DNA from: Xanthomonas sp. F10
GTDB lineage: Bacteria > Pseudomonadota > Gammaproteobacteria > Xanthomonadales > Xanthomonadaceae
Reading direction: 5' to 3'
Assembly: GCF_014206815.1 (NCBI RefSeq)
Contig: NZ_JACHNP010000002.1
Location: forward strand, 620,001-684,000
DNA length: 64,000 bases
Part shown: positions 39,358-62,166 of the stretch, piece after piece
Numbering within the stretch: the first letter of the stretch is position 1
How the letters are laid out: each line of letters starts with the position of its first letter
Notes under the pieces: model-generated
Database searches by the model: none
The model's input: only the letters and a program-made list of their open reading frames with translations
What the model was told of the DNA's origin: nothing
Program-made: the position numbers and the translations under genes

Positions 39358-39890
39358 GTCGGCAGCGGATTGTCAGGATGCTCGCCGCGGGCGCGCTGGC
39401 GCTTGTGCTCGGCGCGTGCGGCCGCAGCATCACCAGCACGCCTGGCGATGCGCCGAACCTGGAGAACTGGGTGAAGGAAGTGCGCGCGCGGCCGGCGCAG
39501 CCGCTGGAGCCGCTGCCGGTGATGCAGCAGTTCGAAACCTTCGAGTATGCGGCGCAGGGCCTGCGCGATCCGTTCAGCGATGCCTGGGCCAGCCCCGACG
39601 GCAGCAGCGGCCTGCGCCCGGACCCGAACCGCCGCAAGGAACCGCTGGAGCAGTTCCCGCTGGACAGCCTCAACATGGTCGGCACGCTGGGGAGTGGCGC
39701 GGGCCAAGTCGCGCTGGTGATGGCGCCGGACAAGGTGACCTACCGCGTGCGTCCCGGCGTGTACATGGGGCAGAGCGATGGCCGCGTGACCGGGGTGCAC
39801 GAGGATCGCATCGATTTGATTGAACTGGTGCCGGATGGCGCCGGCGGCTGGTTGGAACGTCCCGCCTCCGTCGCGCTGGACGATCAATGA
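39354..39890 (+). CDS. pilP: type IV pilus lipoprotein PilP
   Basis: A 178-residue inner-membrane lipoprotein: signal peptide LAAGALALVLGAC with lipobox LGAC. A flexible linker of about 60 residues precedes the HR-type beta domain (LDSLNMVGTLGSGAGQVALVMAPDKVTYRVRPGVYMG). PilP bridges the PilNO complex to the secretin PilQ. ATGA overlap with pilO. Confidence 0.96.
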   Translation: MSRQRIVRMLAAGALALVLGACGRSITSTPGDAPNLENWVKEVRARPAQPLEPLPVMQQFETFEYAAQGLRDPFSDAWASPDGSSGLRPDPNRRKEPLEQFPLDSLNMVGTLGSGAGQVALVMAPDKVTYRVRPGVYMGQSDGRVTGVHEDRIDLIELVPDGAGGWLERPASVALDDQ

Positions 39891-41806
39891 TTGATTATGG
39901 GGATAGCACGATGACTTTTTCCAAAGCCCTGAGCCTGCGCCCCATCCGGCGCCACGCGACGATGCGGCTATGCGCGTTGGGGTTGGCGGCGATGCTCGGG
40001 AACGCGGTCGTCGCCAGCGCGGCACCGGCCACTGCGGCTGCGGCCACGCCTGCCGCAGCGGCGGCGACGCCGGCCAAGCTCACCGTGTCGAAGGTCGACT
40101 TCAAGCGCGGCGACGGCGGTGCGGGGCGGCTGATCCTGTCCTTCAACGGCGCCGGCGCCAGCCCGGACCTGCGCACGCAGGGCAACAACGTGGTGGTCGA
40201 TGTCGGCAATGCCGTGCTGCCGCCGGAGCTGCAGCGGCCGCTCAACGTCACCGACTTCGCCACCCCGGTGCAGCGCATCGATGCCAAGCCCTATGCGGGC
40301 GGCGCGCAGCTGACGCTGAGCACCAACGGCCCGTTCGAGTCGCTGGCCTACCAGTCGGGCAACGAATACGTGGTCGAGATCACCCCGCGCGCCGCTGCGC
40401 CGGCCGTCGGCGCGGTCACCGCGGCCACGGTCAGCCAGGCCGCCGCGCAGGTGGCCGAGCGCGGCTACAGCGGCAAGCCGGTGACCTTCAACTTCCAGGA
40501 CGTGCCGGTGCGCACGGTGCTGCAGCTGATCGCCGAGGAATCCAATCTCAACATCGTCGCGTCCGACACCGTGCAGGGCAGCGTCACCCTGCGCCTGGTC
40601 AACGTGCCGTGGGACCAGGCGCTGGACATCGTGCTGCGCGCCAAGGGCCTGGACAAGCGCCGCGACGGCAAGGTGATCTGGGTCGCGCCGCAGCAGGAAC
40701 TGGCCAAGTTCGAACAGGACAAGGAAGACGCGCGCATCGCGATCGAGAACCGCGAGGACCTGATCACCGACTACGTGCAGATCAACTATCACAGCGCCAC
40801 GGCGATCTTCAAGGCGCTGACCGAGGCCAAGGGCATCGGTGGCGGTGGTGGTGGCGGTAGTGGCGGCTCGGGTGGTGGCGGCAACAGCCAGAACGACAAC
40901 GGCTTCCTGTCGCCGCGCGGACGCATCGTCGCCGACGAGCGCACCAACACGCTGATGATCAGCGACATCCCGAAGAAGGTCGCGCAAATGCGCGAGCTGA
41001 TCAATGTGATCGATCGACCGGTCGACCAGGTGCTGATCGAGGGGCGTATCGTCATCGCCACCGATACCTTCGCCCGCGACCTGGGCGCCAAGTTCGGTGT
41101 CGGCGCAACACGCACCTATGGAGACAATGTCGCCACGGTCGGAAGCAACGCAGCCGGTGGCGGCGTCAATACGCGTGGCCTCAATGTCGATCTGAGCGGC
41201 CCGACCTTCACCAGCGCGCAGACCCTGCCCAGCCTCGCATACACCCTGCTCGGCAAGAACTTCAATCTGGATCTGCAACTGTCTGCCCTGCAAGAAGAAG
41301 GGCGGGGTGAAGTCATTTCCAATCCGCGCATCGTGACCTCCAACCAGCGCGAGGCAGTGATCCGGCAAGGCAAGGAAATCGGCTATGTCACGATCACCGG
41401 TGGAACCGCCGGAACCGCGGCGACGCCCAACGTACAGTTCAAGGAAGTATTGCTGGAGCTGAAGGTGACGCCGACCATCACCGACGACAATCGTGTGTTC
41501 TTGAACATGAACGTCAAGAAAGACGAAGTCGAGCGCTACGTGGTCTTGCAGAACTACGGCACCGTGCCGGAAATCAATCGCCGCGAGATCAATACCGCCG
41601 TGCTGGTCGACGATGGTCAGACGGTGGTGATCGGTGGTGTCTACGAGTTCAACGATCGCAGCAGTGTCTCCAAGGTGCCGTTCCTGGGCGATGTGCCGTT
41701 CCTGGGTAACTTGTTCAAGAAGCGCGGCCGCAACAAGACCAAGGCAGAGCTACTGATCTTCGTCACCCCGAAGGTGATGCACGTGGCCAAGCGCGCGTCG
41801 GCCTGA
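39887..41806 (+). CDS. pilQ: type IV pilus secretin PilQ
   Basis: A 639-residue outer-membrane secretin that forms the pilus pore. Signal peptide ends near ASAAPA. AMIN domain (about 65-175, SKVDFKRGDGGAGRLILSF), STN/N0 domain (VTFNFQDVPVRTVLQLIAEESNLNIV), N1-type domain interrupted by a Gly/Ser-rich loop (about 316-332), then the secretin core with VEVTP-like VTPTITDDNRVFLNMNVKKDE and GQTVVIGGVYEF. The ATG at 39887 overlaps pilP by 4 bp like its neighbours; ATG 39911 (MTFSKAL) is a plausible alternative. Only one AMIN domain is seen, where many PilQs have two. Confidence 0.96.
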   Translation: MIDYGDSTMTFSKALSLRPIRRHATMRLCALGLAAMLGNAVVASAAPATAAAATPAAAAATPAKLTVSKVDFKRGDGGAGRLILSFNGAGASPDLRTQGNNVVVDVGNAVLPPELQRPLNVTDFATPVQRIDAKPYAGGAQLTLSTNGPFESLAYQSGNEYVVEITPRAAAPAVGAVTAATVSQAAAQVAERGYSGKPVTFNFQDVPVRTVLQLIAEESNLNIVASDTVQGSVTLRLVNVPWDQALDIVLRAKGLDKRRDGKVIWVAPQQELAKFEQDKEDARIAIENREDLITDYVQINYHSATAIFKALTEAKGIGGGGGGGSGGSGGGGNSQNDNGFLSPRGRIVADERTNTLMISDIPKKVAQMRELINVIDRPVDQVLIEGRIVIATDTFARDLGAKFGVGATRTYGDNVATVGSNAAGGGVNTRGLNVDLSGPTFTSAQTLPSLAYTLLGKNFNLDLQLSALQEEGRGEVISNPRIVTSNQREAVIRQGKEIGYVTITGGTAGTAATPNVQFKEVLLELKVTPTITDDNRVFLNMNVKKDEVERYVVLQNYGTVPEINRREINTAVLVDDGQTVVIGGVYEFNDRSSVSKVPFLGDVPFLGNLFKKRGRNKTKAELLIFVTPKVMHVAKRASA

Positions 41807-43047: not shown

Positions 43048-43980
43048 ATGGCACCGCAGCCGACCGCGCCGGGCATGCCGCAGGCCGCCGCGCCGGCCGA
43101 GCAGGGCGTTCGCCCCAGCCTGACCGAACTGGTGGCGTTGCGCGCGGCCGTCGCGCGGGTGCCGCCGCCGCGTCGCGGCCGTCACGGCCTCAGTGGCGCC
43201 GCCCCGTCGCCGATGCGTGGGCGAGGCATGGAGTACGCCGAATCGCGCGAATACGTGGTGGGCGACGACGTCCGGCACATCGACTGGCGGCTGACCGCGC
43301 GCAGCGGCCGCACCCACACCAAGTTGTTCCAGGCCGAGCGCGAACGGCTCAGCCTGATCGTGGCCGATACCGCGCCGTCGCTGTATTTCGGTACGCGCGT
43401 CCGCTTCAAGTCGGTGCAGGCGGCGCGTGCCGGGGCCGTGGCCGCATGGGCGGCGCAGCGCCAGGGCGATCGCCTGGCCGCGCTGCGCGGCAGCCGCAGC
43501 GAAGCGCCGGTGCCGCCGGCCTCCGGACCGCGCGGGGTGCTGCGCGTCCTCGATGCGCTGGCGCGCTGGTATGCGCAGCCGCCGCAGGACGACGCCGGCC
43601 TGGGCATGGCCCTGGATCATGCGGCCAAGTTGCTGCGTCCAGGATCGCGCCTGACCGTGCTGGCCGATCCGGCCAGCGCCCAGGCGGTTCCCGCCGCGCG
43701 CTGGGCCGGACTGGCGCTGCACAACGACGTCGAGTTGATCCTGCTCGCCGATCCGCTGGAAGTGCAGCCGCCGCGCGCGGCCCTGCCGTTCTGGGCGAGT
43801 GGCCGCCGCGTGGAAGTGGATCTGCTGGCGAGCACCGCGCAACAGCGCTGGCGCGCGCAGTTCGTGCAGCCGCTGGAAACCCTGGCTGCGGAACTGCCGG
43901 GCCGTGGCGTGCAGGTGCGGGTACTGCTGAGCGACGCGCCCAGCGAATCGTGGTTGCTGCCGGTGGGGGCGATGGCATGA
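43048..43980 (+). CDS. DUF58 domain protein
   Basis: A 310-residue protein with a DUF58 domain. The core signature is GRGMEYAESREYVVGDDVRHIDWRLTARSGRTHTKLFQAERER (residues about 58-100, quoted in part), followed by a VWA-like fold starting LSLIVADTAPSLYFG. The MIDAS serine pattern is not intact (DTAPS), as in many DUF58 proteins. The N-terminus is cytosolic with no membrane helix. DUF58 genes almost always follow moxR and precede VWA membrane proteins; the substrate is unknown. Confidence 0.92.
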   Translation: MAPQPTAPGMPQAAAPAEQGVRPSLTELVALRAAVARVPPPRRGRHGLSGAAPSPMRGRGMEYAESREYVVGDDVRHIDWRLTARSGRTHTKLFQAERERLSLIVADTAPSLYFGTRVRFKSVQAARAGAVAAWAAQRQGDRLAALRGSRSEAPVPPASGPRGVLRVLDALARWYAQPPQDDAGLGMALDHAAKLLRPGSRLTVLADPASAQAVPAARWAGLALHNDVELILLADPLEVQPPRAALPFWASGRRVEVDLLASTAQQRWRAQFVQPLETLAAELPGRGVQVRVLLSDAPSESWLLPVGAMA

Positions 43981-44444
43981 GTCCGCAGCAACTGCCCCTG
44001 CGCGATGTGCATCTGCCGCCGGCGCCGGCCTGGTGGCCGCCCGCACCGGGCTGGTGGATGCTGGCGGCAGTGCTGCTGCTGGCGATCGCCGTGGTGCTGG
44101 TCGTGTGGATACGCCGGCGCCAGCGCGTGCAGCGCTGGCAGCGCCAGTTCGACGCGGCAACGCGCGCGGGCGAGCCGCCGGCGCAGGTGGCCGCGGTGTC
44201 GGAGTTGCTGCGGCGCGCGGCGCAACGTCGCGATCCCGCCGCGGCGACATTGCAGGGCGAAGACTGGCTGCGGTTCCTGGACGGTGGCGACAAGCGCCAG
44301 GCGTTCTCGGCCGGCCCGGGCCGTGTGCTGCTCGATGGCGGCTATCGGCCCAGCGTGGACCCGGCACAGGTGCAGGCGTTGCTGCCGCTGGCCCGGCGCC
44401 GGTTCCTGGTGCTGATGGCGCCGCGACGTGGAGGACGGCGATGA
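43977..44444 (+). CDS. DUF4381 membrane protein
   Basis: A 155-residue protein with one membrane helix (WWMLAAVLLLAIAVVLVVWI, about 26-47) flanked by a proline/tryptophan-rich N-terminus (PPAPAWWPPAPGWW) and a basic cytosolic side (RRRQRVQRWQRQF). The cytosolic part has LLRRAAQRRDPAAATLQGEDWLRFLDGG, the DUF4381 hallmark. ATGA overlap with the DUF58 gene and again with the next VWA gene. Probably an accessory subunit of the Bat complex; no biochemical role is known. Confidence 0.9.
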   Translation: MSPQQLPLRDVHLPPAPAWWPPAPGWWMLAAVLLLAIAVVLVVWIRRRQRVQRWQRQFDAATRAGEPPAQVAAVSELLRRAAQRRDPAAATLQGEDWLRFLDGGDKRQAFSAGPGRVLLDGGYRPSVDPAQVQALLPLARRRFLVLMAPRRGGRR

Positions 44445-45463
44445 GCCTGTTGCCGTCGTCGTGGCAGAGCCTCAGCGACCTGGTGGCCGGCTTCGTCTGG
44501 CCCTGGATGTGGCTGGCGATGCCGCTGCCCTTGCTGGCTAACCTGCTGCTGCCGGCACGCCGCGGCAATGCGCCGGCCTTGCGCGTGCCCTATGGCGAGC
44601 GCCTGCAGGCCGTGGCCGCCGCGCCGGTGCGCGGTGGGCTGTGGCGTGCCAGCGCGTGGCTGGCATGGCTGGCGTGGTTCTGCCTGTGCGCGGCGGCGGC
44701 GCGGCCGCTGCAACTGGGCGAGCCCATCGCGCCGCCGCAGCAGGCGCGGCAGCTGATGCTGGCGGTGGATCTGTCCGGCAGCATGAGCGAGCCGGACATG
44801 AGCCTGGGCGGGCGCGTGGTCGATCGTTTGACCGCGGCCAAGGCGGTGCTGGCCGATTTCCTCGACCGCCGCGACGGCGACCGCATCGGCCTGCTGGTGT
44901 TCGGCCAGCAGGCGTATGCGCTGACCCCGCTGACCGCAGACCTGGCCACGGTGCGCGACCAGTTGCGCGACAGCGTGGTCGGCCTGGCCGGGCGCGAGAC
45001 CGCGCTGGGCGATGCGATCGCGCTGGCGGTCAAGCGCCTGCGCGAGCAGAAGCAGGGCGAGCGCGTGCTGATCGTGCTCACCGACGGCGTCAACACCGCC
45101 GGCGTGCTCGACCCGCTGAAGGCCGCCGAACTGGCCAAGGCCGAACACGTGCGCGTCTATACCATCGCCTTCGGTGGCGATGGCGGCATGTCGTTGTTCG
45201 GCCTGCCGATCCCGGGGAGCGGCGGCGACGATCAGGTCGACGAGGACACGCTGCGCAAGATCGCGCAGGACACCGGTGGGCGCTTCTTCCGCGCCCGCGA
45301 CACCGCCGAGCTGGCCTCGATCTACGCCGAGCTGGACCGGCTCGAGCCGGTACGGTCTGCTGGCCCGGCGGTGCGGCCACGGATCGAACGCTACGCCTGG
45401 CCGCTGGGCGCGGCGTTGGCCCTGGCGTTGCTGTCCTTCATCTGGCCCTGGAGGCGGCAATGA
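44441..45463 (+). CDS. VWA-domain membrane protein (BatA-like)
   Basis: A 340-residue protein with two N-terminal membrane helices, a VWA domain, and a C-terminal helix (ALALALLSFIWPW). The MIDAS is intact: DLSGS at 110-114 (DxSxS), the Thr in LAGRETALGDAIALA, and the Asp in VLTDGVN. It should therefore bind a divalent metal and a partner's acidic residue. The topology places the VWA domain between TM2 and TM3 in the periplasm or cytosol by the usual BatA model. ATGA-coupled to both neighbours. Confidence 0.93.
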   Translation: MSLLPSSWQSLSDLVAGFVWPWMWLAMPLPLLANLLLPARRGNAPALRVPYGERLQAVAAAPVRGGLWRASAWLAWLAWFCLCAAAARPLQLGEPIAPPQQARQLMLAVDLSGSMSEPDMSLGGRVVDRLTAAKAVLADFLDRRDGDRIGLLVFGQQAYALTPLTADLATVRDQLRDSVVGLAGRETALGDAIALAVKRLREQKQGERVLIVLTDGVNTAGVLDPLKAAELAKAEHVRVYTIAFGGDGGMSLFGLPIPGSGGDDQVDEDTLRKIAQDTGGRFFRARDTAELASIYAELDRLEPVRSAGPAVRPRIERYAWPLGAALALALLSFIWPWRRQ

Positions 45464-50949: not shown

Positions 50950-52950
50950 ATGACGACGCCTACCCGCCGCGAACTCGCCAACGCGATCCGTTTCCTTGCC
51001 GCCGATGCGGTCGAGGCCGCCAATTCCGGCCACCCCGGCATGCCGATGGGCATGGCCGACATCGCCGAAGTGCTGTGGAACGACTTCCTCAGCCACAATC
51101 CGAACAATCCGCACTGGTTCAACCGCGACCGCTTCGTGCTGTCCAACGGCCATGGCTCGATGCTGCAGTACGCGCTGCTGCACCTGTCCGGCTACGACCT
51201 GCCGATCGAGGAGCTCAAGCGCTTCCGCCAGCTGCACAGCAAGACCGCCGGCCACCCCGAGCGCAGCGAGACCCCGGGGGTGGAGACCACCACCGGTCCG
51301 CTGGGCCAGGGCTTTGCCAACGCGGTCGGTTTCGCGCTGGCCGAGAAGCTGCTGGCGCAGCGCTACAACCGTCCCGAGCACCAGATCGTCGACCATCGCA
51401 CCTGGGTGTTCATGGGCGACGGCTGCATGATGGAAGGCGTGTCGCACGAAGCCGCATCGCTGGCCGGCACCTGGGGCCTGGGCAAGCTGGTTGCGTTCTG
51501 GGACAACAACCATATCTCCATCGACGGCAACACCGCCGGCTGGTTCAGCGACAACACCCCGGCCCGGTTCGAGGCCTATAACTGGCACGTGATCCGTGAT
51601 GTCGACGGCCAGGATGCCGACGCGGTCAAGGCTGCGATCGAGGCCGCGATCGCCGAGAGCGAGAAGCCGACCCTGATCTGCTGCCGCACCACCATCGGCT
51701 TCGGTGCGCCGACCAAGGCCGGCAAGGAATCCTCGCACGGCGCCGCGCTGGGCAAGGAAGAGCTGGAAGGCGCGCGCAAGGCGCTGAACTGGCCGTATGC
51801 GCCGTTCGAGATCCCGCAGGCGATCTACGACGGCTGGCGCGCCGGCGGTGCGGGCACGCTGCGCCAGGCCGAGTGGGAGCAGGCCTTCGACAAGTACGCC
51901 AAGCAGTACCCGGCCGAAGCCGCGGAACTGACCCGCCGCTCGCATGGCGAGCTGCCGGAAGACTTCCTCGCCCAGGCCGACGCCTACATCGCCAAGCAGG
52001 CCGCCGAAGGCCAGACCATCGCCTCGCGCAAGGCGTCGCAGATGGCGATCGAGGCGTTCGCGCCGCTGCTGCCGGAGCTGGTCGGCGGTTCGGCCGACCT
52101 GGCGCATTCCAACCTGACCCTGTGGAAGGCCAGCAAGTCGGTCGCCAGCGACGATCCGAACGCCAACTACGTGTACTACGGCGTGCGCGAGTTCGGCATG
52201 ACCGCCATCGCCAACGGCCTGGCGCTGCACGGCGGCTTCATCCCGTTCGACGCTACCTTCCTGGTGTTCAGCGACTACGCGCGCAACGGCGTGCGCATGA
52301 GCGCGCTGATCCCGGCGCACGCGATCCACGTCTACACCCACGATTCGATCGGCCTGGGCGAGGATGGCCCGACCCATCAGCCGGTGGAACACCTGGCGTC
52401 GCTGCGCTACATCCCCAACAACGACGTGTGGCGCCCCTGCGACACGGTGGAGTCGGCGGTGAGCTGGAAGGCCGCGATCACCCGCAAGGACGGCCCGAGC
52501 TGCCTGGTGTTCAGCCGCCAGAACCTGCCGCACCAGCCGCGTAGCGCCGAGCAGATCAAGCAGATCGAGCGCGGCGGCTACGTGCTGGCCGATGCCGAGG
52601 GCGGCACGCCCGACGTGATCCTGATCGGCACCGGCTCGGAAGTCGGCCTGGCGGTGGAAGCGAAGCAGGCGCTGGATGCCGCGGGCCTGAAGACCCGCGT
52701 GGTGTCGATGCCGTGCACCGACGTGTTCGATCGCCAGGACGCGGCCTACCGGGAGTCGGTGCTGCCGTCGTCGGTGCGCAAGCGCGTGGCGGTGGAAGCC
52801 GGTGTCACCGCCTTCTGGCGCGCCTACGTGGGCCTGGACGGCGCCGTGGTCGGCATCGACAGCTTCGGCGCCTCGGCGCCGGCGAATGTGCTGTACAAGC
52901 ACTTCCAGATCACCGCCGAGCACGTGGTGGCGGCGGCGAAGGCGCTGTAA
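50950..52950 (+). CDS. tkt: transketolase
   Basis: A 666-residue thiamine-diphosphate enzyme that moves two-carbon units in the non-oxidative pentose phosphate pathway. [32 protein letters not shown] opens the protein. The TPP/Mg motif is [13 protein letters not shown] with [11 protein letters not shown]; the activating Glu is in the pyrimidine domain near [15 protein letters not shown], and [20 protein letters not shown] is the phosphate-binding signature. Full length relative to E. coli TktA (663). Works with RpiA (6147). Followed by a strong terminator. Confidence 0.98.
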
Positions 52951-53144: not shown

Positions 53145-53906
53145 TCAACCGCGCTTGCGCGGCCTGCTGCGCGGCGTTGCAGGTTTGCCGGCGGCGTTAC
53201 TGGATTTCTGCGGCGTCGCCAGTGCGCCAGCCTCCTGCAGTTGCTGCAGCCAGGACAGTGCGTCGACGTAGGACAGGAAGTGCTGCAGATAGCCGGGCGA
53301 GAGCGTGCGCATCAGCGTCAGTGCGCGATGCACCAGCACGCCGGAGTTCAGCGGACCGGCGTCGGCGGGTGCCGGTTGCAGCGACTGCCGCAACTGGCTG
53401 CGGCTGCGCAGCTCGGTCCACAGCCGGCGCGCGTCTTCGACCGCGGGCAACTGTGGCGCGACGAGGCGCGCTGGCGCCGCTGCGGACGACGACGCTGCGT
53501 CAGCTGGCGACGCTGCCGCTGTGAGCGGCTCGGTGGTGGTCCCGGTGCCGGTGTCGGCACCCAGACCGGGCGCGGCGTCGGATTCGGTTGCAACGTTGCT
53601 GGCGCTGGCGACGGCAGCCGAACGATGTTCCGCCAGCAGTGCACCCAGCGGACTCGGCTGGGCCGAGTGCGCCGCGGCGTCGGCGGTATCGCCAGTGTTC
53701 TGCGGCGTCGCGGCCAGCGCGGCCGCGTAGGCGTCGAGCAGGGCGGACAGCTTCTGCTCCAGCAGTTCCCGCGCCTTGCCCCGCTGCGCCTCGGTGCGGC
53801 GTGCCAGCGCTTCGAGGAAGCGGAAGCGCAGCGGGTCCAGCCGCTCGGCATGCTGTGTGCGCCAGGCGGCAAGACGGTCGGTGGCGGCGATTGGATCAGG
53901 GCGCAT
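53145..53906 (-). CDS. DUF2894 domain-containing protein
   Basis: A 253-residue soluble protein. N-terminal helices with AAWRTQHAERLDPLRFRFLEALARRTEAQRGKARELLEQKL match the DUF2894 opening. An Ala/Thr/Pro-rich linker follows (about 85-155). The C-terminal part, LRQSLQPAPADAGPLNSGVLVHRALTLMRTLSPGYLQHFLSYVDAL, ends in a basic tail (RSRPRKRG). Function unknown. Its start lies 11 bp inside the OmpA-like gene, so it is translationally coupled. Fourth and last gene of the DUF3348-DUF802-OmpA-DUF2894 cassette; the family may bind the motor tail or nucleic acid, but nothing visible decides. Confidence 0.85.
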   Translation of the reverse strand: MRPDPIAATDRLAAWRTQHAERLDPLRFRFLEALARRTEAQRGKARELLEQKLSALLDAYAAALAATPQNTGDTADAAAHSAQPSPLGALLAEHRSAAVASASNVATESDAAPGLGADTGTGTTTEPLTAAASPADAASSSAAAPARLVAPQLPAVEDARRLWTELRSRSQLRQSLQPAPADAGPLNSGVLVHRALTLMRTLSPGYLQHFLSYVDALSWLQQLQEAGALATPQKSSNAAGKPATPRSRPRKRG

Positions 53907-54546
53907 GCGGTGTCGCGGCGCGCTTGCGCATGCGTGGCAGCGGTGCCATCTCCACGCGGCGGTTGCTGGCGCGTCCGGCCTCGTCCACGTTCGGCGCCAC
54001 CGGTTGCTGCGCGCCGAAGGCCGCGGCGAAGACCGCATCGGCCGGTACGCCGGCCTCGATCAGCGCACGGGTCACGGTCAGCGCACGCTCGGCCGACAGT
54101 TCCCAGTTGTCGGCGAACTGGCGGTTGCTCTCGCGCACCTGGCGGTCGTCGGTGAAGCCGCTGACCATCAGGATCTCGTCGCGGGCCTTGAGGTAGCCGG
54201 CCAGCGGCGCGGCCAGGCTCTTCAGCAGGTCGCGGCCCTCCGGCTGCAACTGATCCGAGTTCAACGCGAACAGCACGTTGCCGCGGATGCCGATGCGGCC
54301 GTCGACCAGGGTCACCCGGCCCGCCGCCAGCGGGACCGCCAGCGCCTGTTCCAGGGTCTTGCGCTGTTGCGCTTCGCGCTGGTGCTGACGCATTTCCGCG
54401 TCCAGCTTGTTCGCCAGCTGCAACTGCACGCCGATCACCCCGATCAGGATCAGCACGAAGGCGCCGAGCAGCACCGACATCAGGTCGCCGAACACCGCCC
54501 AGACCGGCGCGCCGCTGTCGGCCTCGAGTTCCAGCTCGTCGCTCAT
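53896..54546 (-). CDS. MotB-like OmpA-domain protein
   Basis: A 216-residue protein. A short cytosolic N-terminus (MSDELELEADSGAPVW) is followed by one membrane helix, FGDLMSVLLGAFVLILIGVIGV (about 19-40), with Asp21 in the position of the proton-channel Asp of MotB, and a coiled-coil linker. The OmpA/MotB peptidoglycan-binding domain (about 85-200) contains VSGFTDDRQVRESNRQFADNWELSAERALTVTRALIEAGV and NRRVEMAPL, with the canonical Asp and Arg of the domain. It overlaps the DUF802 gene by 4 bp. Predicted to anchor a stator-like complex to the wall. Confidence 0.9.
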   Translation of the reverse strand: MSDELELEADSGAPVWAVFGDLMSVLLGAFVLILIGVIGVQLQLANKLDAEMRQHQREAQQRKTLEQALAVPLAAGRVTLVDGRIGIRGNVLFALNSDQLQPEGRDLLKSLAAPLAGYLKARDEILMVSGFTDDRQVRESNRQFADNWELSAERALTVTRALIEAGVPADAVFAAAFGAQQPVAPNVDEAGRASNRRVEMAPLPRMRKRAATPHAP

Positions 54547-56999
54547 GCCGCGTCGGCCTGGTCGGGCGCCTGGCGCGCGGCGAGCTGGCGCAGCTCTTCG
54601 GTGATCTGCTGCTGCGAGAGCATGCTCAGGTCGATCACCTCACGCGCCTGCGCCACGTAGTAGGCCAACTGTTCGTCGCTGCGCGCCAGCGACTTGTCCA
54701 GCGCCTGCTCGATGCCCTGCAGGCGTTCCAGCAGTGCCGTGTTCGATTCGCCGAAGGCCTGCACCGCACCGGCGAAGGCGTCGCCCAGGCTGGCCACTTC
54801 GGTGGCGCCGGCGACGACCTGTGCGGCGGCGTCGCCGAGCTTGCCGGTCTCGGCTTCGATCCGGTCGGTGAAGCGGCTGCCGACGCGTTCCAGCAGGTCG
54901 GCCGAGGTGGCGACCAGGGCGTCCACCGCGCTGCGCTGTTCGGTGGACGCGTGGTTGACCGCCTCCAGCAGGGTCTGCAGCGTGGCCAGCAGGCGGTTGC
55001 GTTCGTCCAGCATCGCGGTGTCGCGGACCATGCTGTCGGAGAGCTTCTGGCGCAGTTCGGCGACCACGTCGGCCGCCGCCTTCGGCGCTTCCGAGGCGAC
55101 CTGCACCAGCCGCTCGATCTCGGCGATGGTGTCGCGCGCCTGCGCCTGGCTCTGTTCCGACATCGCCGCGGCGGTCTCCTGCAGGGTGCCGCAGATTTCC
55201 TGCTGGCGCTGCGCGATGCGCTCGCCGTGGTGCTCCCACTGCCCGCCGAGGGTCGCGGCCATGCTGGCGAAGCTGTCGGTCCAGGCACGCAGGCGCGCCT
55301 GGTCGCGCGCTTCCAGCGCCTGCTGCAGGTCGGCGTGTGCCTGCTGCAGCGTCTCGGCCAGCGCGGCGGCGCGCTGCTCCAGGGTGGCCGCGGCCGTGTC
55401 CAGCGCCTGCGCATTGCGCGTGGCGAGGGCCTCGTTGACGTCGCGTTGTTGCGTCAGCGCGGCGCTCCAGGCCTGCTGCACGGCTTCGGCGGTGGCGTCC
55501 AGACGGGTCGCCACGGTGTCCAGTGCTTGCGCTTGGCGCGTGGCGAGCGCCTCGTTGGCGTCGCGTTGCTGCGCCAGCGCGGCGCTCCAGGCCTGCTGCG
55601 CGGCCTCGGCGGTGGCGTCCAGACGGGTCGCCACGGTGTCCAGCGCCTGCGCGTGGCGCGTGGCGAGCGTCTCGTTGACCTCACGCTGCTGCGTCAGTGC
55701 CGCGCCCCATGCCTGTTGTGCGGCCTCGGCGGTGGCATCCAGACGGGTCGCCACCGTGTCCAGCGCCTGCGCATGGCGCGCGGCGAGACCGTCGTTGGCC
55801 GCGCGCTGCTGCGTCAGGGCCTCGGCCCAGGCCTGCCTGGCGTCGTCGCTGGCGGCCTGCAGGCGTGCCGCGGTCGCCTCCACCAGGCTGGTAGTGCGCT
55901 GTTCCAGGCCGTCGCCGGCGCGTTGCAGCGCGCTGCCGAGTTCCTGCAGCAGCGCGCCGTTGGTGCGTTGCTGCTCGGCCAGCGCCTTGTCCCAGCGCTG
56001 CGTGGCCTGCTCGGCGGCCTGTGCGAAGCCGCTGGACAGACCGTCCAGTTGCCGCTGCACCGCCTGGCCGACGCTGTCCTGCAGCGCGGCGGTCTCGCGC
56101 GCCACGCCGTCGAGGGTGCGCTGCACCACCGGTTCCAGCGCATCGCCGAAGGCACGCGCGTGCGCGGCCACGCCGGCCTGCAGGGCATGTTCCACGGCCC
56201 CGGCCAGGCGCGTGTAGGCGGCTTCGGTGCGGCTGTGGAAGGCGTCCTGGCTGCTGGCCAGGCGCTCGCCGCTGACCGCGCTGTGCTGTTCCAGCGCCGC
56301 CATCATCGTCTGCATGCGCTCGATCAGGCCGGGCATCAGCGTGGCCTGGGTCTGCAGCAGCTTGAAGGCCTCGTTGCGCTGGTAGGCCAGCGAATGCGTG
56401 CGCAGTGCGGTCGCCGCATGCAGGTCCAACTGCTGCACCGCCTGCAGGCGCTCGCGCCGGCACAGCGCGGCGAGCAGGCCGAGCATCGCCGAGGTGGCCA
56501 CGCCGGCGATGGAGGTGCCGAAGGCGAAACCCAGGCCCTTCAGCGGCGCCGCCAGCGAGGCGCGGATGGCCTGCAGGTCGGTGGCGCTGTCCAGCGCCAG
56601 GCCGGTGCCGCGCAGGGTGGCCATCATGCCCAGGAAGGTGCCGAGCATGCCCAGCAGCACCAGCAGGCCGACCAGGTACGGGGTCAACGCCGGCACCGGC
56701 AGGCCCGCGCGCTCGCCCTCGATGCGCAGGCGCACCGCGTTGCGCAGGCTGGGGTGCAGGCGCTGCAGCCAGCCGCCCAGGTCGCTGCTTGCGGCGTCGG
56801 CGTGCGCCAGCGCGCCGTGCAGGGTCTGCGTGGCCTGGCGGTAGCGGTACAGCTCGGCGATGCCGGCCAGGTAGCAGAGGCCGATCAGCGCGGCGAAGCC
56901 GGCGCCCAGCGGGTTGGAGCCGAGATAGCCGACGCCGATCCAGCAGACCACGGCGAGGCCGGCGAGGAACAGGGCGGAATGGAGCAGGGTCTTGGGCAT
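54543..56999 (-). CDS. DUF802 protein: ExbB/TolQ/MotA-like membrane core with long repeat tail
   Basis: An 818-residue protein. Membrane segments: about 5-26, 31-50, 105-128 and 156-180. Segment 3 carries LLVLLGMLGTFLGMMATLRG and segment 4 GLGFAFGTSIAGVATSAMLGLLAAL, the two signatures of the MotA/TolQ/ExbB superfamily. The remaining ~640 residues are a helical tail containing four exact 40-residue repeats starting at 391, 431, 471 and 511 (each opens W-x-x-AL-x-QQR and contains QALDTxATxL), the DUF802 region, then a chemoreceptor-like coiled coil. A degenerate unit starts at 336. ATG at 56999 is preferred over an in-frame TTG at 57008. Confidence 0.9.
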   Translation of the reverse strand: MPKTLLHSALFLAGLAVVCWIGVGYLGSNPLGAGFAALIGLCYLAGIAELYRYRQATQTLHGALAHADAASSDLGGWLQRLHPSLRNAVRLRIEGERAGLPVPALTPYLVGLLVLLGMLGTFLGMMATLRGTGLALDSATDLQAIRASLAAPLKGLGFAFGTSIAGVATSAMLGLLAALCRRERLQAVQQLDLHAATALRTHSLAYQRNEAFKLLQTQATLMPGLIERMQTMMAALEQHSAVSGERLASSQDAFHSRTEAAYTRLAGAVEHALQAGVAAHARAFGDALEPVVQRTLDGVARETAALQDSVGQAVQRQLDGLSSGFAQAAEQATQRWDKALAEQQRTNGALLQELGSALQRAGDGLEQRTTSLVEATAARLQAASDDARQAWAEALTQQRAANDGLAARHAQALDTVATRLDATAEAAQQAWGAALTQQREVNETLATRHAQALDTVATRLDATAEAAQQAWSAALAQQRDANEALATRQAQALDTVATRLDATAEAVQQAWSAALTQQRDVNEALATRNAQALDTAAATLEQRAAALAETLQQAHADLQQALEARDQARLRAWTDSFASMAATLGGQWEHHGERIAQRQQEICGTLQETAAAMSEQSQAQARDTIAEIERLVQVASEAPKAAADVVAELRQKLSDSMVRDTAMLDERNRLLATLQTLLEAVNHASTEQRSAVDALVATSADLLERVGSRFTDRIEAETGKLGDAAAQVVAGATEVASLGDAFAGAVQAFGESNTALLERLQGIEQALDKSLARSDEQLAYYVAQAREVIDLSMLSQQQITEELRQLAARQAPDQADAA
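55353..55832 (-). repeat. four tandem 120-bp units inside the DUF802 gene
   Basis: Exact 120-bp period: AGACGGGTCGCCACGGTGTC begins at 55501 and 55621, and with one change at 55741. The nucleotide identity between the middle units is very high, higher than selection on protein alone requires, suggesting recent unit duplication or gene conversion. Confidence 0.9.
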
Positions 57000-57009
57000 G
57001 AGGGTCAAA

Positions 57010-57744
57010 TCAACGGCTGCGAAGCGCGGCGAGCAGCGCCTCGATGGGATGGAAGCGGACGTCCAGTTCGGCGCGCAGGACGCTGTGCAGGTCCTGGCGG
57101 AACAGGTCCAGCCAGGCCGCGTCGGACGGCGCCGGAAGAGGGTCGGTAAGCGTCGGATCGGGAGCGGGTGCCGCCGCCGTCGCGCGCAGGCGCTGGAAAT
57201 GCGCCTCGAGCAGGTTGGGCACCGTCGCCAGCAAGGTCTGTTCGCGTGGGCTGAGGGTCAGTTCCATGACCGCATCGACCTCGGCCAGCCGCGCCATGTC
57301 CGGCGAGAGCGGGATCAGGGCATCGCGCAGCAGGCCACGCAGGCGCCCGGTCGCGGTGAGCATCGCGCGTTGCAGCGCCAGGTAGCGCTGGCGGAACGGC
57401 GCGTACTCGATCGGTGCGTCGGGGTCGTGCTGGCGCTTGCCCACGGGCTTGCCGGTCTCCTTGGCGATGTCCAGCGCGATGCCTTCTTCCAGCGCGGCGC
57501 GCACGCGCAGGCATTCGGCCTCCAGCGCCGACGGTTCCGGCGCCTCGGGCGCGTCTTCCGCGGGCTCGGGCAGTTTGCCGTCCAGCGCCCGCGACACCGC
57601 CACCGCGCGGTTCCAGTCGATCCATTGGCCGAGCCGGTCGGCCAGCGCGGGGCTGGACGCGGGCATCGGCGCATCGCTCAGGCGCGCCAGCAGGCGAATG
57701 AAGGCCGGGCCCGGGACGGGCGCCCGTGGAGGGGCTTTCGCCAT
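57010..57744 (-). CDS. DUF3348 domain-containing protein
   Basis: A 244-residue soluble helical protein. IRLLARLSDAPMPASSPALADRLGQWIDWNRAVAVSRALD and IEYAPFRQRYLALQRAMLTATGRLRGLLRDALIPLSPDMARLAEVDAVMELTLSPREQTLLATVPNLLEAHF are the family signatures (quoted as landmarks). It ends LDVRFHPIEALLAALRSR. No membrane segment or catalytic motif is visible. First gene of the cassette, 10 bp before the DUF802 gene. The family is found with DUF802 and DUF2894 proteins; the function is unknown. Start ATG 57744; a TTG at 57756 is in frame. Confidence 0.87.
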   Translation of the reverse strand: MAKAPPRAPVPGPAFIRLLARLSDAPMPASSPALADRLGQWIDWNRAVAVSRALDGKLPEPAEDAPEAPEPSALEAECLRVRAALEEGIALDIAKETGKPVGKRQHDPDAPIEYAPFRQRYLALQRAMLTATGRLRGLLRDALIPLSPDMARLAEVDAVMELTLSPREQTLLATVPNLLEAHFQRLRATAAAPAPDPTLTDPLPAPSDAAWLDLFRQDLHSVLRAELDVRFHPIEALLAALRSR

Positions 57745-58001: not shown

Positions 58002-60740
58002 TCAGTAGGTGTAGCTCAGCGTGAGCATGTACACGCGCCCGGTTTCCACGTAGGCGCCATCGGCACCGGGGTCGTAGGCCATGTAGCGCGTGGACTTGCC
58101 CTGGGTTTCGTAGAACGTGGCCGCGTTCAGCAGGTTCTTGGCGGCGATCCCGACATCGATGCCGTGCGGCAGGTGGTAGGTGGCGGTGAAGTCCAGCGAC
58201 TTGACCGGCTGCAGGTAGTAGTTGAGCCGGTCGCTGGTCAGGCCGAGCAATTGCAGGCCGGTGTAGTTGTAGCTCAGGTCGGCGCGCAGGCGGCTGTCGT
58301 CGTAGAACAGGTCCAGGTTGTAGATGCGCTCGGGCGCACGCGGCAGCCAGGTCTTTTCGGGTTGGTCGGCGCGCTTGCTGTCGGCGGAGCTGTGCTGCAG
58401 GGTCAGGTTGGCGGCGATGCCGAGATTGCCCCAGAACCCGGGCAGGTCCTGCAGGCGCTTGCTGCCGGCCAGTTCCACGCCGTACAGCGTGGCGGTGCCG
58501 CCGTTCTGCGGCATGGTCACCGGCACGCCGTCCTCGAAGGTGGTGCCGGTCGGGACCAGGCCACCCAGCGTGTTGTCGTTGCTGGTCGCCGACTGCGAGG
58601 TGTAGATGAAGCCGGTGATGCGCTTGTAGTAGGTCGAGGCGCTGAGCACGCCGCCGTTGCGGTCGTAGAACTCCGCGGACAGGTCGGCGTTGTCGGCCTT
58701 GCTCGGCTGCAGGTCGGGATTGGGTTTGGAAATGCCGATGACTTTCTGGGTGGGGTCGACGGTGTACACCGTCTCGCCGGAGATCAGGCCGAACGCCGGG
58801 CGGCTGAAGCTGCGCCGCAGCGAGGCGCGGTAGACGGTCAGCTCGTCCGGGCGGTAGTTGAGGCTGATGCCGGGCAGCACCTCGCCGTAGCTGCGGCCGC
58901 TGCCGACGAAGCGGCCGTTGATGCCGTCGCCGTTGGACTGCCAGGCGTCGGCCGAGTAGCGCGTCAGTTCGTAGCGCACCCCAGGCAGTACGGTCACCGC
59001 GCCGACATGCAGCGTGGCCATCGCGTAGCCGGCGTAGATCGCCTCGGTGCTGGAGGTGGTGTTGGCGTTGTAGTCGTTGGCGGTGTAGACGCCGGCGCCA
59101 TTGGGATCGTTGACGTACTTATAGGGCACCGCCTGCGCGCGCACCCAGTCGCGGTCGAGGATCTTGAACGGGCCGGCGTAGTGGCCATCGAAGGCGGCAT
59201 AGGTGAGACGGCCGGGCAGCGCGCTCAGCGGCGGGCCGCCGGCGTTGGGGAACACGTAGTTGCTGCCGCCGAAGTAGGGGCCGTTGTAGATGAAGTTGCC
59301 GTCCTTGTGGAAGAACGGGTGATCGTAGGAGCCGCGGTCGGCGTGGTCCAGCGACAGGCCGGTCTTGACCTCGTCGAGCAGGTCGCCGTCCACGCGGTAG
59401 CTGATGTCGGCATGCGCGCTGGCGCGGTTGTCGTGGCTGCCGGCGTCGTGGCCCTGGGTCTTCCAGAACAGCGCCGAATCCAGGCTGTAGAAGAAGTTCT
59501 TCAGGGCCGGCGAGCTCGGGCCGATGCCGGGATAGGTCGGATCGCTGAGGTCGAACGCGAAGCTGCCCGGGGTGAAGCCGTACAGGCTGGCCGCGACATA
59601 GTCCGGTCGGGCGCGCGTACCGCGTCCGAACGAGCCGCCGTAGTCGAAGCGCAGGCGGTCCAGCGTGGTCTGCCCACCCAGTTGCAGCGTGGCCAGGGTT
59701 TCCTTGATGTCGTGGGTGTTGAAGTAGCCGCCACGCACCGCGGTGGGCTGGTTGTTGACGGTTTCCAGGCGTGCGCTGGACTGGTCCTGCTGGCCGGTGA
59801 CGTTGTAGCTGCCGTAGATGGCGCGGGCGAAGAAGGCGCTGTGGTCGCCCTGCCAATCGAAGGCGAGGTTGCCGCCGTAGCGCTCGATCTGGCTGGTGTA
59901 GACGCTGTACTTGTAGCGGGCGCTGAGCAGCGGGCCGACATCGCGCAGATCCACCGCCTTGGCCTGTGCCGGGTCCGCGGGGAAGTACGCGCTGTTGGGC
60001 GCGGGCGCCTGCGCCATGTTGTTGTTCTTGCCGTAGTAGGCCGAGGCGTAGATGCCGAACGCGTGGTCGTCGCCGAACTTCCAGGCCAGCTCCTGTTGCA
60101 CCGTGCCGCCGGTGTGCTTGCCGCCGAGGTCGGAGGCGAGCGCGTTGAACTGGCCTTGCGCGGTGGTCTTGCCGTAGAAGTCGCCGTCGAAATCGAACGC
60201 GCTGGGCGTGCGCATGTCGATCGCGCCGCCGATCGCGTCGCCCGGCAGGTCCGGGGTCGGCGACTTGGAGACCTTGACAGACTGGATGCCGAACGGCGCC
60301 AGCATGTTCAGCGAGATCGCACGCGTGGACGAATCGGTCTCGGGCATGCCGAAGCCGTTGAGGCTGTAGCTGTTGTAGCTGGCATCCAGGCCGCGGATGC
60401 TGACGTAGGCGTTCTCGCCGGTGGTGGCCTGGCCCAGATGCATGTCGCTGTAGGCCGACAGGCCGGGCAGGTGCGCGACCACGTCGGCGATGCCGGCGGA
60501 GGGGATCGCGTCGATCTGCTGCTTGCTCATCACGCTGTTGACGCCGTTGGACAGGCGCTGTTCGTCCAGCGAGCCCGGCGCGCTGGCCTGCGCCGCCTGC
60601 ACGTTGACCGAGTCCAGGGTGGTGGTGCGCGCACTGGCGTCAGTCGGGTCGTCGGCGTCGCTGGCGTGGGCGGCTGGCGAGAGCGCCAGCGCAAGGGCGA
60701 TGGCACAGCACAAGGGACGGGGGCGATGGAACACGGGCAT
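58002..60740 (-). CDS. TonB-dependent receptor
   Basis: A 912-residue outer-membrane transporter. Signal peptide PLCCAIALALALSPAAHA, then a TonB-box-like LDSVNVQAA near residue 45. The plug domain contains QIDAIPSAGIADVVAHLPGLSAYSD, ENAYVSIRGLDASYNSYSLNG, and SVKVSKSPTPDLPGDAIGGAIDMRT. The 22-strand barrel ends with a C-terminal aromatic (LTLSYTY). The IRGL/GxIxMRT architecture is close to the large Xanthomonas carbohydrate- or oligomer-type receptors, not classic siderophore ones. It follows the phospholipase C gene by 132 bp and is probably cotranscribed. Substrate unknown. Confidence 0.93.
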   Translation of the reverse strand: MPVFHRPRPLCCAIALALALSPAAHASDADDPTDASARTTTLDSVNVQAAQASAPGSLDEQRLSNGVNSVMSKQQIDAIPSAGIADVVAHLPGLSAYSDMHLGQATTGENAYVSIRGLDASYNSYSLNGFGMPETDSSTRAISLNMLAPFGIQSVKVSKSPTPDLPGDAIGGAIDMRTPSAFDFDGDFYGKTTAQGQFNALASDLGGKHTGGTVQQELAWKFGDDHAFGIYASAYYGKNNNMAQAPAPNSAYFPADPAQAKAVDLRDVGPLLSARYKYSVYTSQIERYGGNLAFDWQGDHSAFFARAIYGSYNVTGQQDQSSARLETVNNQPTAVRGGYFNTHDIKETLATLQLGGQTTLDRLRFDYGGSFGRGTRARPDYVAASLYGFTPGSFAFDLSDPTYPGIGPSSPALKNFFYSLDSALFWKTQGHDAGSHDNRASAHADISYRVDGDLLDEVKTGLSLDHADRGSYDHPFFHKDGNFIYNGPYFGGSNYVFPNAGGPPLSALPGRLTYAAFDGHYAGPFKILDRDWVRAQAVPYKYVNDPNGAGVYTANDYNANTTSSTEAIYAGYAMATLHVGAVTVLPGVRYELTRYSADAWQSNGDGINGRFVGSGRSYGEVLPGISLNYRPDELTVYRASLRRSFSRPAFGLISGETVYTVDPTQKVIGISKPNPDLQPSKADNADLSAEFYDRNGGVLSASTYYKRITGFIYTSQSATSNDNTLGGLVPTGTTFEDGVPVTMPQNGGTATLYGVELAGSKRLQDLPGFWGNLGIAANLTLQHSSADSKRADQPEKTWLPRAPERIYNLDLFYDDSRLRADLSYNYTGLQLLGLTSDRLNYYLQPVKSLDFTATYHLPHGIDVGIAAKNLLNAATFYETQGKSTRYMAYDPGADGAYVETGRVYMLTLSYTY

Positions 60741-60843
60741 GGGCACGACTCGTTGGGGGAAACAGCGGTTGCGATCCGAGGTCCGGACACGCCGATGCCG
60801 GCGCGCGGATCGCCCAGGCCTTCCATTGCGTGTGTGCAGGGCG

Positions 60844-60863
60844 TGGCCGCGACGCAGCGCGGC
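60844..60863. repeat. intercistronic hairpin between the phospholipase and receptor genes
   Basis: GGCCGCG-ACGCAG-CGCGGCC, a 7-bp stem 10 bp downstream of the phospholipase stop on the minus strand. No T tract; it may modulate read-through or mRNA stability. Confidence 0.4.
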
Positions 60864-60872
60864 CACTGGCGA

Positions 60873-61991
60873 TCAGTGGCGCAGGTCGACGTCGTGGCAG
60901 TCGGCCTGCGGACGTTGCGGATTGCAGCGGGCGACGGCGTCGCCGGGAAAGCGCACCACGTAGCCGGAGGCGGCCGGCTCGTGATCGGGAAAGTCGGTGC
61001 TGAGCAGTTGCGCGCCGCTGGCGAGCATGGCGTCGCGCCGCGCGGTGTCGTTGCGCAGGGCTTCCTTGAGGTCGGCATCGGTGCGGGTGCGCACCAGGTA
61101 GCCGGCCTTCACCAACGTTGCGATCTCATCGGCGCTGCCATCGTTGCGCTCGACGAAGGCGGCATCGTCGGTGCCGGGATCGGCATTGGTGAAACACACG
61201 CGGCCGCGCAAGGACGGATGGCCGGCCAGGTAGGCCGAGCCGACGCCACGCTGGTCGAGCAGGAACACCACCTTGCCGCGCGCCGCGGAGAGCGCCGGCC
61301 AGCCATGCGCGAGCACGGCGGCGTTGAGCGTGGCGGCGCTGCCACGCACCTGGTCGGGGCTGATGTACTCGTTGGCGGCGAACACCGCGCGCAGTTCGGC
61401 GTCCAAGGCATCCAGTGCCTTGCCGTCGAACGGTTCCGGCTGCACCGTGGGGAAGGCCGCCGGCACGGTCGATTGCTTGGTTTCCAGCAGGATGAAGAGT
61501 GGCAGATGCCCGGGATGCCGTCGCGACCACGCGCGCACCTCGCGCAGGCAGGCCAGCAGCGGCTGGCAGGTGCTGCGCTGATCGAGGTCCTGGATGTGCA
61601 TGACCTTGAAGCCCGGTTGCTGCATCACCCCGGGCGCGGAGATCGGCGGGGCCGGCGGCAGCCCGGCCTTGGCGAGTTGCTCGATCATCGCCGGATGCGC
61701 ATAGCGGCCGCCCTTGGCGTCGGCGTAGATGTCCAGTTCGATCTGGCGCACGCCGTCGTCCAGTTGCTGCGTCAACGGCGGGTGCCGGTAGTCGAGCGCC
61801 GCGAACGTCGCCGGGTCCAGGCGTTTCCACAGCGCCGCTTCGCTGGGCGCGAAGCCGGCGTGGTAGCTGTTGTGGCTGCCGAGGTACTGCAGGTCGTTGA
61901 GCTTGGGTTCGGCGAGCAGGGCGGACGGCAACAGCACCAGTACCGCCAACAGCACGCGCAGCGCGGTGCGGCGAGAGAACGACGACGGCAT
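60873..61991 (-). CDS. secreted Ca2+-dependent phosphoinositide-type phospholipase C
   Basis: A 372-residue exported protein. Signal peptide TALRVLLAVLVLLPSALLA. The catalytic TIM barrel opens LNDLQYLGSHNSYHAG (His40/Asn41), then DDGVRQIELDIYAD (acidic metal ligands) and GFKVMHIQDLDQ (second His), and LPLFILLETK. These are the PI-PLC-C1 family signatures. The C-terminal part has TRTDADLKEALRNDTARRDAMLASGAQLLSTDFP, another family mark. The enzyme would cleave a phosphodiester or glycerophosphodiester head group; inositol lipids are the family's named substrates. Start choice: ATG 61991; ATG 62015 possible. Upstream of the TonB receptor. Confidence 0.88.
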   Translation of the reverse strand: MPSSFSRRTALRVLLAVLVLLPSALLAEPKLNDLQYLGSHNSYHAGFAPSEAALWKRLDPATFAALDYRHPPLTQQLDDGVRQIELDIYADAKGGRYAHPAMIEQLAKAGLPPAPPISAPGVMQQPGFKVMHIQDLDQRSTCQPLLACLREVRAWSRRHPGHLPLFILLETKQSTVPAAFPTVQPEPFDGKALDALDAELRAVFAANEYISPDQVRGSAATLNAAVLAHGWPALSAARGKVVFLLDQRGVGSAYLAGHPSLRGRVCFTNADPGTDDAAFVERNDGSADEIATLVKAGYLVRTRTDADLKEALRNDTARRDAMLASGAQLLSTDFPDHEPAASGYVVRFPGDAVARCNPQRPQADCHDVDLRH

Positions 61992-62151
61992 CGGGACAGG
62001 GCGTTGGGAGTGCATCGCGGCCACGCTTGGTAACGATATCCCGACAGCATCCCGAGCGCAGTTGACGCCCTTCCTGCCGGCATGTTGCCGAATCGTGTCA
62101 TCGCCGCCGATGTGCGACATTCGTGCGGCACATCGCATTCGCGTGCGACGC

Positions 62152-62166
62152 GCGATCACTTATCGC
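62152..62166. promoter_or_regulatory. GCGAT-N5-ATCGC inverted repeat upstream of the phospholipase gene
   Basis: GCGATCACTTATCGC sits about 160 bp from the phospholipase start, in a 229-bp gap. On the minus strand it includes GATAAG. Adjacent CGACATTCGTGCGGCACATC-like stretches are partly repeated. Possible operator; weak. Confidence 0.25.

Follow-up and report, generated by a model that had tools for sequence, protein, structure and literature searches.

The window analysed here is a 64,000-nucleotide stretch of the genome of Xanthomonas sp. F10 (assembly GCF_014206815.1, contig NZ_JACHNP010000002.1, positions 620,001 to 684,000), and the object of study is an operon of four genes on its minus strand, very probably belonging to the anti-phage system Zorya type III. 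The first gene (57744-57010) encodes a DUF3348 protein of 244 amino acids, predicted to be soluble and all-helical (Pfam 1.4e-85). It is followed by zorA (56999-54543), for a DUF802/MotA-like protein of 818 amino acids, by zorB (54546-53896), for an OmpA/MotB-like protein of 216, and by a DUF2894 gene (53906-53145), whose product of 253 amino acids is predicted to be soluble and helical, with a basic C-terminal tail (Pfam 4.7e-56). The part of zorA that encodes the tail of the protein contains a tandem array on the same strand (55396..55836), in which Tandem Repeats Finder recognised 3.7 copies of a 120 bp unit (40 residues) at 87% match. All four open reading frames (ORFs) start with ATG and stop with TGA, and their coordinates leave a gap of 10 bp, then overlaps of 4 bp and 11 bp, the layout reported in an initial annotation that had described the genes as an uncharacterised ion-driven motor.

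A hydropathy profile (19-residue window, threshold 1.5) placed four hydrophobic stretches within residues 1-181 of ZorA, the first of them made of two overlapping calls, and one in ZorB. Beyond the last membrane stretch of ZorA lies a tail of about 637 residues, the long cytoplasmic tail of a Zorya ZorA; the initial annotation had four membrane segments and a helical tail of about 640. DUF802 itself matches ZorA in five stretches (Pfam 1.7e-32). The association of DUF802 with OmpA-like genes, on which that annotation depended, was likewise recovered: tblastn found the four genes together in 115 of 120 fetched loci (80 chosen by ZorB and 40 by DUF802, with at least four genomes present twice). 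The five incomplete loci comprised one without zorB and four that lack DUF3348 and end at a contig end. In the phylum sample, DUF802 and DUF3348 were found in the identical 19 of 398 genomes.

Assignment to Zorya type III

The type III models of PADLOC match all four proteins: DUF3348 at 1.1e-85 (PDLC00658), ZorA at E = 0 (ZorA3), ZorB at 7e-114 (ZorB3) and DUF2894 at 1.7e-64 (PDLC00652). The ZorA3 match is broken into four stretches (best 1-424), and the other three are nearly full length. For both motor proteins the type III model is the better one, with 1115.6 bits for ZorA3 against 50.2 for ZorA1, and 376.7 bits for ZorB3 against 61.0 for ZorB1. None of the four operon proteins or of the ten neighbouring ORFs gave a PADLOC match to zorC, zorD or zorE, the partners by which types I and II would be recognised.

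Payne et al. (2021; PMC8565338) gave the name Zorya type III to 6,401 pairs of motor genes (printed there as zorBC) that have genes for DUF3348 and DUF2894 on their flanks. The F10 motor genes lie between just such genes. Because each of the four proteins matches its type III model and the arrangement agrees with the published definition, we conclude that the F10 operon is very probably a Zorya type III anti-phage operon; judged by its sequence, it is intact and unexceptional among copies of this known defence system. It differs from the published system in sequence divergence and in the length of the ZorA tail, neither of which affects membership. The same text reports trials in Escherichia coli, with Stenotrophomonas nitritireducens DSM 12575 as the source of the type III operon: every new subtype tested reduced the plaquing of one or more phages, and the new subtypes protected liquid cultures against PVP-SE1 at a multiplicity of infection below 0.1. 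Xanthomonas is listed as a frequent host of type III (PMC11890865, 2025). The question of what the cassette is can thus be closed, as a name exists and function was tested in a Stenotrophomonas copy.

These results bear unevenly on the initial annotation. Its proposal of a ZorAB-like motor with two soluble partners in place of ZorC, ZorD and ZorE agrees with the PADLOC matches. Its terms 'uncharacterised' and 'role open' are contradicted by the type III definition and the phage tests in E. coli, and its view of DUF3348 and DUF2894 as effectors was not borne out, Payne et al. proposing instead that both proteins regulate ZorAB (PMC8565338). One could still argue for a motor of a new kind, with no relation to Zorya: three of the proteins are domains of unknown function in Pfam, the Pfam MotA_ExbB match is weak, and NCBIfam describes ZorB as hypothetical (PRK09040, 3.2e-113, above cut-off) and gives no match for DUF3348 or DUF2894. 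Given a PADLOC type III match for every protein of the operon, and a family already published and tested as Zorya (PMC8565338), we regard this as extremely improbable, and the novel-motor reading was dropped.

Types I (ZorABCD) and II (ZorABE) share with the F10 operon homologous ZorA and ZorB proteins, the long tail, the Asp of the ZorB helix and the OmpA-like domain, but they carry ZorC and ZorD, or ZorE, where F10 has DUF3348 and DUF2894. The labels of these two partners are exchanged between sources: DUF3348 is ZorF and DUF2894 is ZorG in the text of PMC8565338, and they are ZorG3 and ZorF3, respectively, in PADLOC-DB 2.0.0.

The motor and its two partner proteins

The initial annotation had seen ExbB/TolQ/MotA signatures in ZorA, which holds for one type of model and not for the other. 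Pfam MotA_ExbB scored only 0.021 against F10 ZorA (15.0 bits, cut-off 22.9). The same family was found at E <= 1 in 12 of 14 ZorA heads including that of F10 (best 0.01), and a whole-genome search with it returned five other genes, zorA not among them. The PADLOC models gave significant matches, 4e-14 for ZorA1 and 8e-7 for ZorA2, and we base the kinship of ZorA with the motor family on these two. ZorB matches ZorB1 at 3e-17, and its profile retrieves PDB chains of the MotB type (best 5e-18). A search of PDB sequences with whole ZorA yielded apolipoprotein matches to the amphipathic tail only, which were treated as compositional. MotAB, PomAB, ExbBD and TolQR resemble the F10 pair in combining an A subunit of four membrane stretches with a B subunit that has one, plus an Asp; F10 ZorA differs from them by its very long tail and its sub-cut-off MotA_ExbB score.

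Conservation was examined in alignments of F10 with named loci, 23 of 80 for ZorB and 13 for the ZorA head. Asp21 of ZorB (FGDLMSVLLG), the counterpart of the ion-path Asp of Zorya, had been placed by the initial annotation in the single membrane helix of a protein with an OmpA domain; all 24 aligned sequences have this Asp. Equally invariant (24/24) are N147, L150, S151, R154 and A155, which we take to be part of the OmpA peptidoglycan motif; together with the Pfam OmpA match (5.3e-18), they point to a peptidoglycan-binding domain. In ZorA, T121, T162 and S163 are invariant (14/14). Polar residues of this type have been described as surrounding the Asp of types I and II. These two types are long-tailed ZorAB motors of 5:2 composition, in which defence requires the ZorB Asp, the peptidoglycan domain and the tail (PMC11890865).

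The two partner proteins were modelled with AlphaFold2. The DUF3348 model has eight helices (mean predicted local distance difference test score 87.3, predicted template modelling score (pTM) 0.82), and the invariant polar residues of the family, in an alignment of 57 of 76 usable named loci and F10, include R82, Q125, R136, R140, D157, E168, D218, E226 and R230. DUF2894 is predicted to be helical; its model is poor (pTM 0.39) and was therefore used for helicity alone. Its C-terminal tail is basic, with a net charge of +3 to +8, in all 112 homologues with a delimitable tail, and the alignment (49 of 80 named loci and F10) shows 13 invariant residues.

If DUF3348 or DUF2894 were, or brought, a nuclease equivalent to the ZorD or ZorE of types I and II, the basic tail of DUF2894 could bind DNA, and the invariant polar residues of DUF3348 would be in keeping with such an activity. 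Both models, however, are all-helical, and only two of the invariant residues of DUF2894, R37 and R194, are charged. Neither protein had a better-than-chance enzyme match in Pfam, NCBIfam or PDB sequences, and PDB profile searches gave no convincing solved-structure match (best E = 1.2 for DUF3348 and 0.2 for DUF2894). We consider a nuclease role unlikely.

For a Zorya type III system, the following sequence of events may be envisaged. By homology, ZorA and ZorB would form an ion-driven motor of the inner membrane. Once an infecting phage disturbs the wall, the OmpA-like domain of ZorB would grip the peptidoglycan, ions would pass Asp21, ZorA would rotate and its tail would carry the signal into the cell. 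Since neither DUF protein matches a known enzyme by sequence, the two would more probably gate the motor, or bind DNA or the membrane and recruit host factors, than cut DNA themselves. In the accessible text of the literature on type III, we found no experimental mechanism, and the operon leads one to ask how a motor of the Zorya kind can act when none of its partners is recognisable as a nuclease.

Length steps in the ZorA tail

The autocorrelation of the F10 ZorA protein peaks at lags of 40, 80 and 120. A ZorA of 698 residues recurs in F10's Xanthomonas group, Dyella, Rhodanobacter, Luteibacter, Frateuria, Pseudoxanthomonas and Paraburkholderia. Further lengths in F10's genus are 738, 778 and 818, which correspond to one, two or three 40-residue units added to 698, and the two genomes of F10's own species have the same ZorA-to-ZorB spacing. 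Paraburkholderia proteins (a set that includes five records titled Burkholderia sp.) measure 756, 785, 843, 872, 929, 930, 959 and 1046 residues, which, except for 929, equal 698 plus a multiple of 29. Lengths in Stenotrophomonas, Lysobacter and others fall off these ladders, and differences of 1 to 9 residues also occur.

Much the same picture emerged from the genes themselves. Length varies by in-frame tandem repeats with units mostly of 29 to 131 residues, and Tandem Repeats Finder detected arrays in 52 of 117 zorA genes (at least four genomes being counted twice). The units are 29, 40, 51, 58, 62, 69, 73, 80, 87, 98 and 131 residues long, with short ones of 11, 18, 22 and 33. Those of 29, 40, 51, 62, 69, 73, 98 and 131 lie near whole helical turns: their mean cosine is 0.967 at 3.64 residues per turn, a fit matched by none of 5000 random sets even when the period was left free between 3.5 and 3.7. 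Other period windows reached no more than 0.49. Two further sets, one adding 11, 18, 80 and 87 to these units and the other made of the units of the better arrays (where unit 98 has 1.9 copies only), were each matched by 0 of 5000 random sets; units 22 and 33 are in no set.

The steps can be taken while the motor hardly changes. Head and ZorB are 97.1% identical or more in 13 pairs. ZorA length differs by 0-3 residues in seven of these, and by 51, 51, 58, 87, 87 and 174 in the other six; in one example, head and ZorB are 98.8% identical and the tails 58 residues apart. The calculated length of the tail is about 90 nm in F10 and 66 to 150 nm across homologues. The longest ZorA, of about 1229 residues, was that of Achromobacter pestifer LMG 3431, with 4.5 copies of a 131-residue repeat and a calculated tail near 150 nm.

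As a coiled coil would need its register, the fact that register is kept supports a tail that forms a continuous, register-sensitive rod. That tail length is under selection is only a suggestion. One may go further and picture the ZorA3 tail as a fast-evolving molecular ruler, in which repeat quanta keep the coiled-coil register and reach adjusts the place at which, or the phage against which, the motor signals via DUF3348 and DUF2894; we put this forward tentatively and hold it to be rather doubtful. What the present analysis may add to the literature is that steps in tail length between species keep the helical register. Length jumps that stay in register with the motor head almost unchanged deserve a short follow-up.

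Only one of 16 loci found with type I and II models had such an array, compared with the 52 of 117 type III genes, but the comparison is small and uneven, so that repeats cannot be claimed to be special to type III. It included 14 ZorA_1 loci (12 above the model cut-off) and two ZorA_2 loci, with the longest ORF taken for each; at two of them (L223 and L228) the ORF length differs from that of the listed frame, and a wrong or shortened ORF is possible. Among the matches listed in the ZorA_1 and ZorA_2 searches of the phylum sample, many ZorA-like proteins were seen, several per genome, many in frames of more than 1000 residues and in families such as f53, f57 and f70; most were below the curated cut-off.

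Distribution, inheritance and neighbourhood

Several points weigh against reading the operon as a defence system. All 20 genomes sampled from F10's genus, F10 and one more of its species among them, carry DUF3348, which is stable for such a system. The site is nearly fixed: the operon adjoins a gene on the plus strand (50950..52950), outside the system, whose product is presumably transketolase, named from its family, and 17 of the 18 further species examined from the genus share this neighbour. Inheritance mostly follows taxonomy. In a tree of the ZorA head and ZorB (78 rows, from 77 of 80 named loci and F10, two loci without a ZorA head and one unplaced metagenome-assembled genome having been dropped), changes involving Xanthomonadaceae number 3, compared with 25 in shuffles, and those involving Rhodanobacteraceae 4, compared with 17. 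Burkholderiales form one clade in this tree, several forks are weak, and one row (L147) has less than half its columns filled. The ten neighbouring ORFs gave no PADLOC match, and therefore no sign of a defence island. The step by which DUF3348 and DUF2894 would convert the tail signal into phage interference is the least certain of the proposed scheme, and we found no phage test of the F10 copy, or of any Xanthomonas type III copy, in the literature. Finally, the text of PMC12584637 on Burkholderia cenocepacia records a change upon infection for no more than the leading gene, or the leading two, of its Zorya I and III operons, and the two systems are not among the active ones listed for that species.

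Constant presence, the constant site, the absence of PADLOC matches nearby and the mostly clade-wise inheritance would all suit a resident envelope or housekeeping motor, the protection of E. coli being then a by-product of expression from a plasmid; none of 50,697 phage records had a DUF3348 match, which fits as well. In wider samples, however, DUF3348 was found in just 45 of 149 genomes of the family, and in 20 of 398 of the phylum (19 above cut-off). It is also present in 27 of 72,556 plasmid records, all at less than 60% identity, of which 20, as listed, measure 0.59 to 3.2 Mb and belong to Burkholderia, Caballeronia, Paraburkholderia and Variovorax.

Two loci within the genus are informative in the same respect. 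At the transketolase site of one species (genome G001), an in-frame deletion has taken out zorB and left the front part of zorA fused to the last part of the DUF2894 gene; this is a natural loss of the system. The exception to the transketolase site is Xanthomonas sp. AmX2, which has a type III operon elsewhere, its ZorA head 71% identical to that of F10, and no zor gene within 20 kb around transketolase. Local loss and regain, or transfer, are alternative accounts of this placement. Because zorB is deleted in one species and the AmX2 copy lies elsewhere, with no zor gene at transketolase, the operon appears dispensable. At the transketolase site of G034, a genome taken as narrow-sense Xanthomonas, the operon is absent. 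The nearest named relatives are X. albilineans and X. bonasiae, and the window would accordingly come from their group within Xanthomonas. A PADLOC ZorA2 search of the genus gave matches in 14 of 20 genomes, always at the same zorA locus.

Flanking sequences were compared by blastn coverage, which can miss common sites between distant genomes. In F10's genus, the transketolase side was common to 16 of 17 loci and the other side to 10 of 16. Flanks were partly common in narrow-sense Xanthomonas, Stenotrophomonas, Pseudoxanthomonas and Paraburkholderia; none were common in Dyella or Lysobacter, and in Rhodanobacter one pair was, on one side. A looser clustering by tblastx linked 8 of 11 Dyella upstream flanks, and this single-linkage procedure was discarded, as it joined loci too readily (AmX2 with others). 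The near lack of common nucleotide flanks in Dyella and Rhodanobacter, the plasmid records, the patchy occurrence in the family and the dispensability of the operon all argue against a housekeeping motor, which we judge quite unlikely. Our reading is that the type III operon is inherited clade by clade, mobile within some families, fixed in F10's genus and dispensable. In F10's Xanthomonas group it would be a long-resident chromosomal gene set, with a tail that differs between species by in-register repeats. The natural tail-length variants, together with the species that has lost zorB, constitute ready test material.

Two genes lie beside the operon (58002-62159), one for a TonB-dependent receptor (Pfam 9.2e-34) and one for a member of the PI-PLC-C1 family (Ca2+-dependent phosphoinositide phospholipase C, 1e-132); no sign of a partnership between the receptor and the motor was found. 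Elsewhere in the window, at 39887-41806 and 43048-45463, a gene for a secretin (Pfam Secretin 1.9e-52) is followed downstream by DUF58 and VWA genes, a group that looks ordinary and unrelated to the operon.
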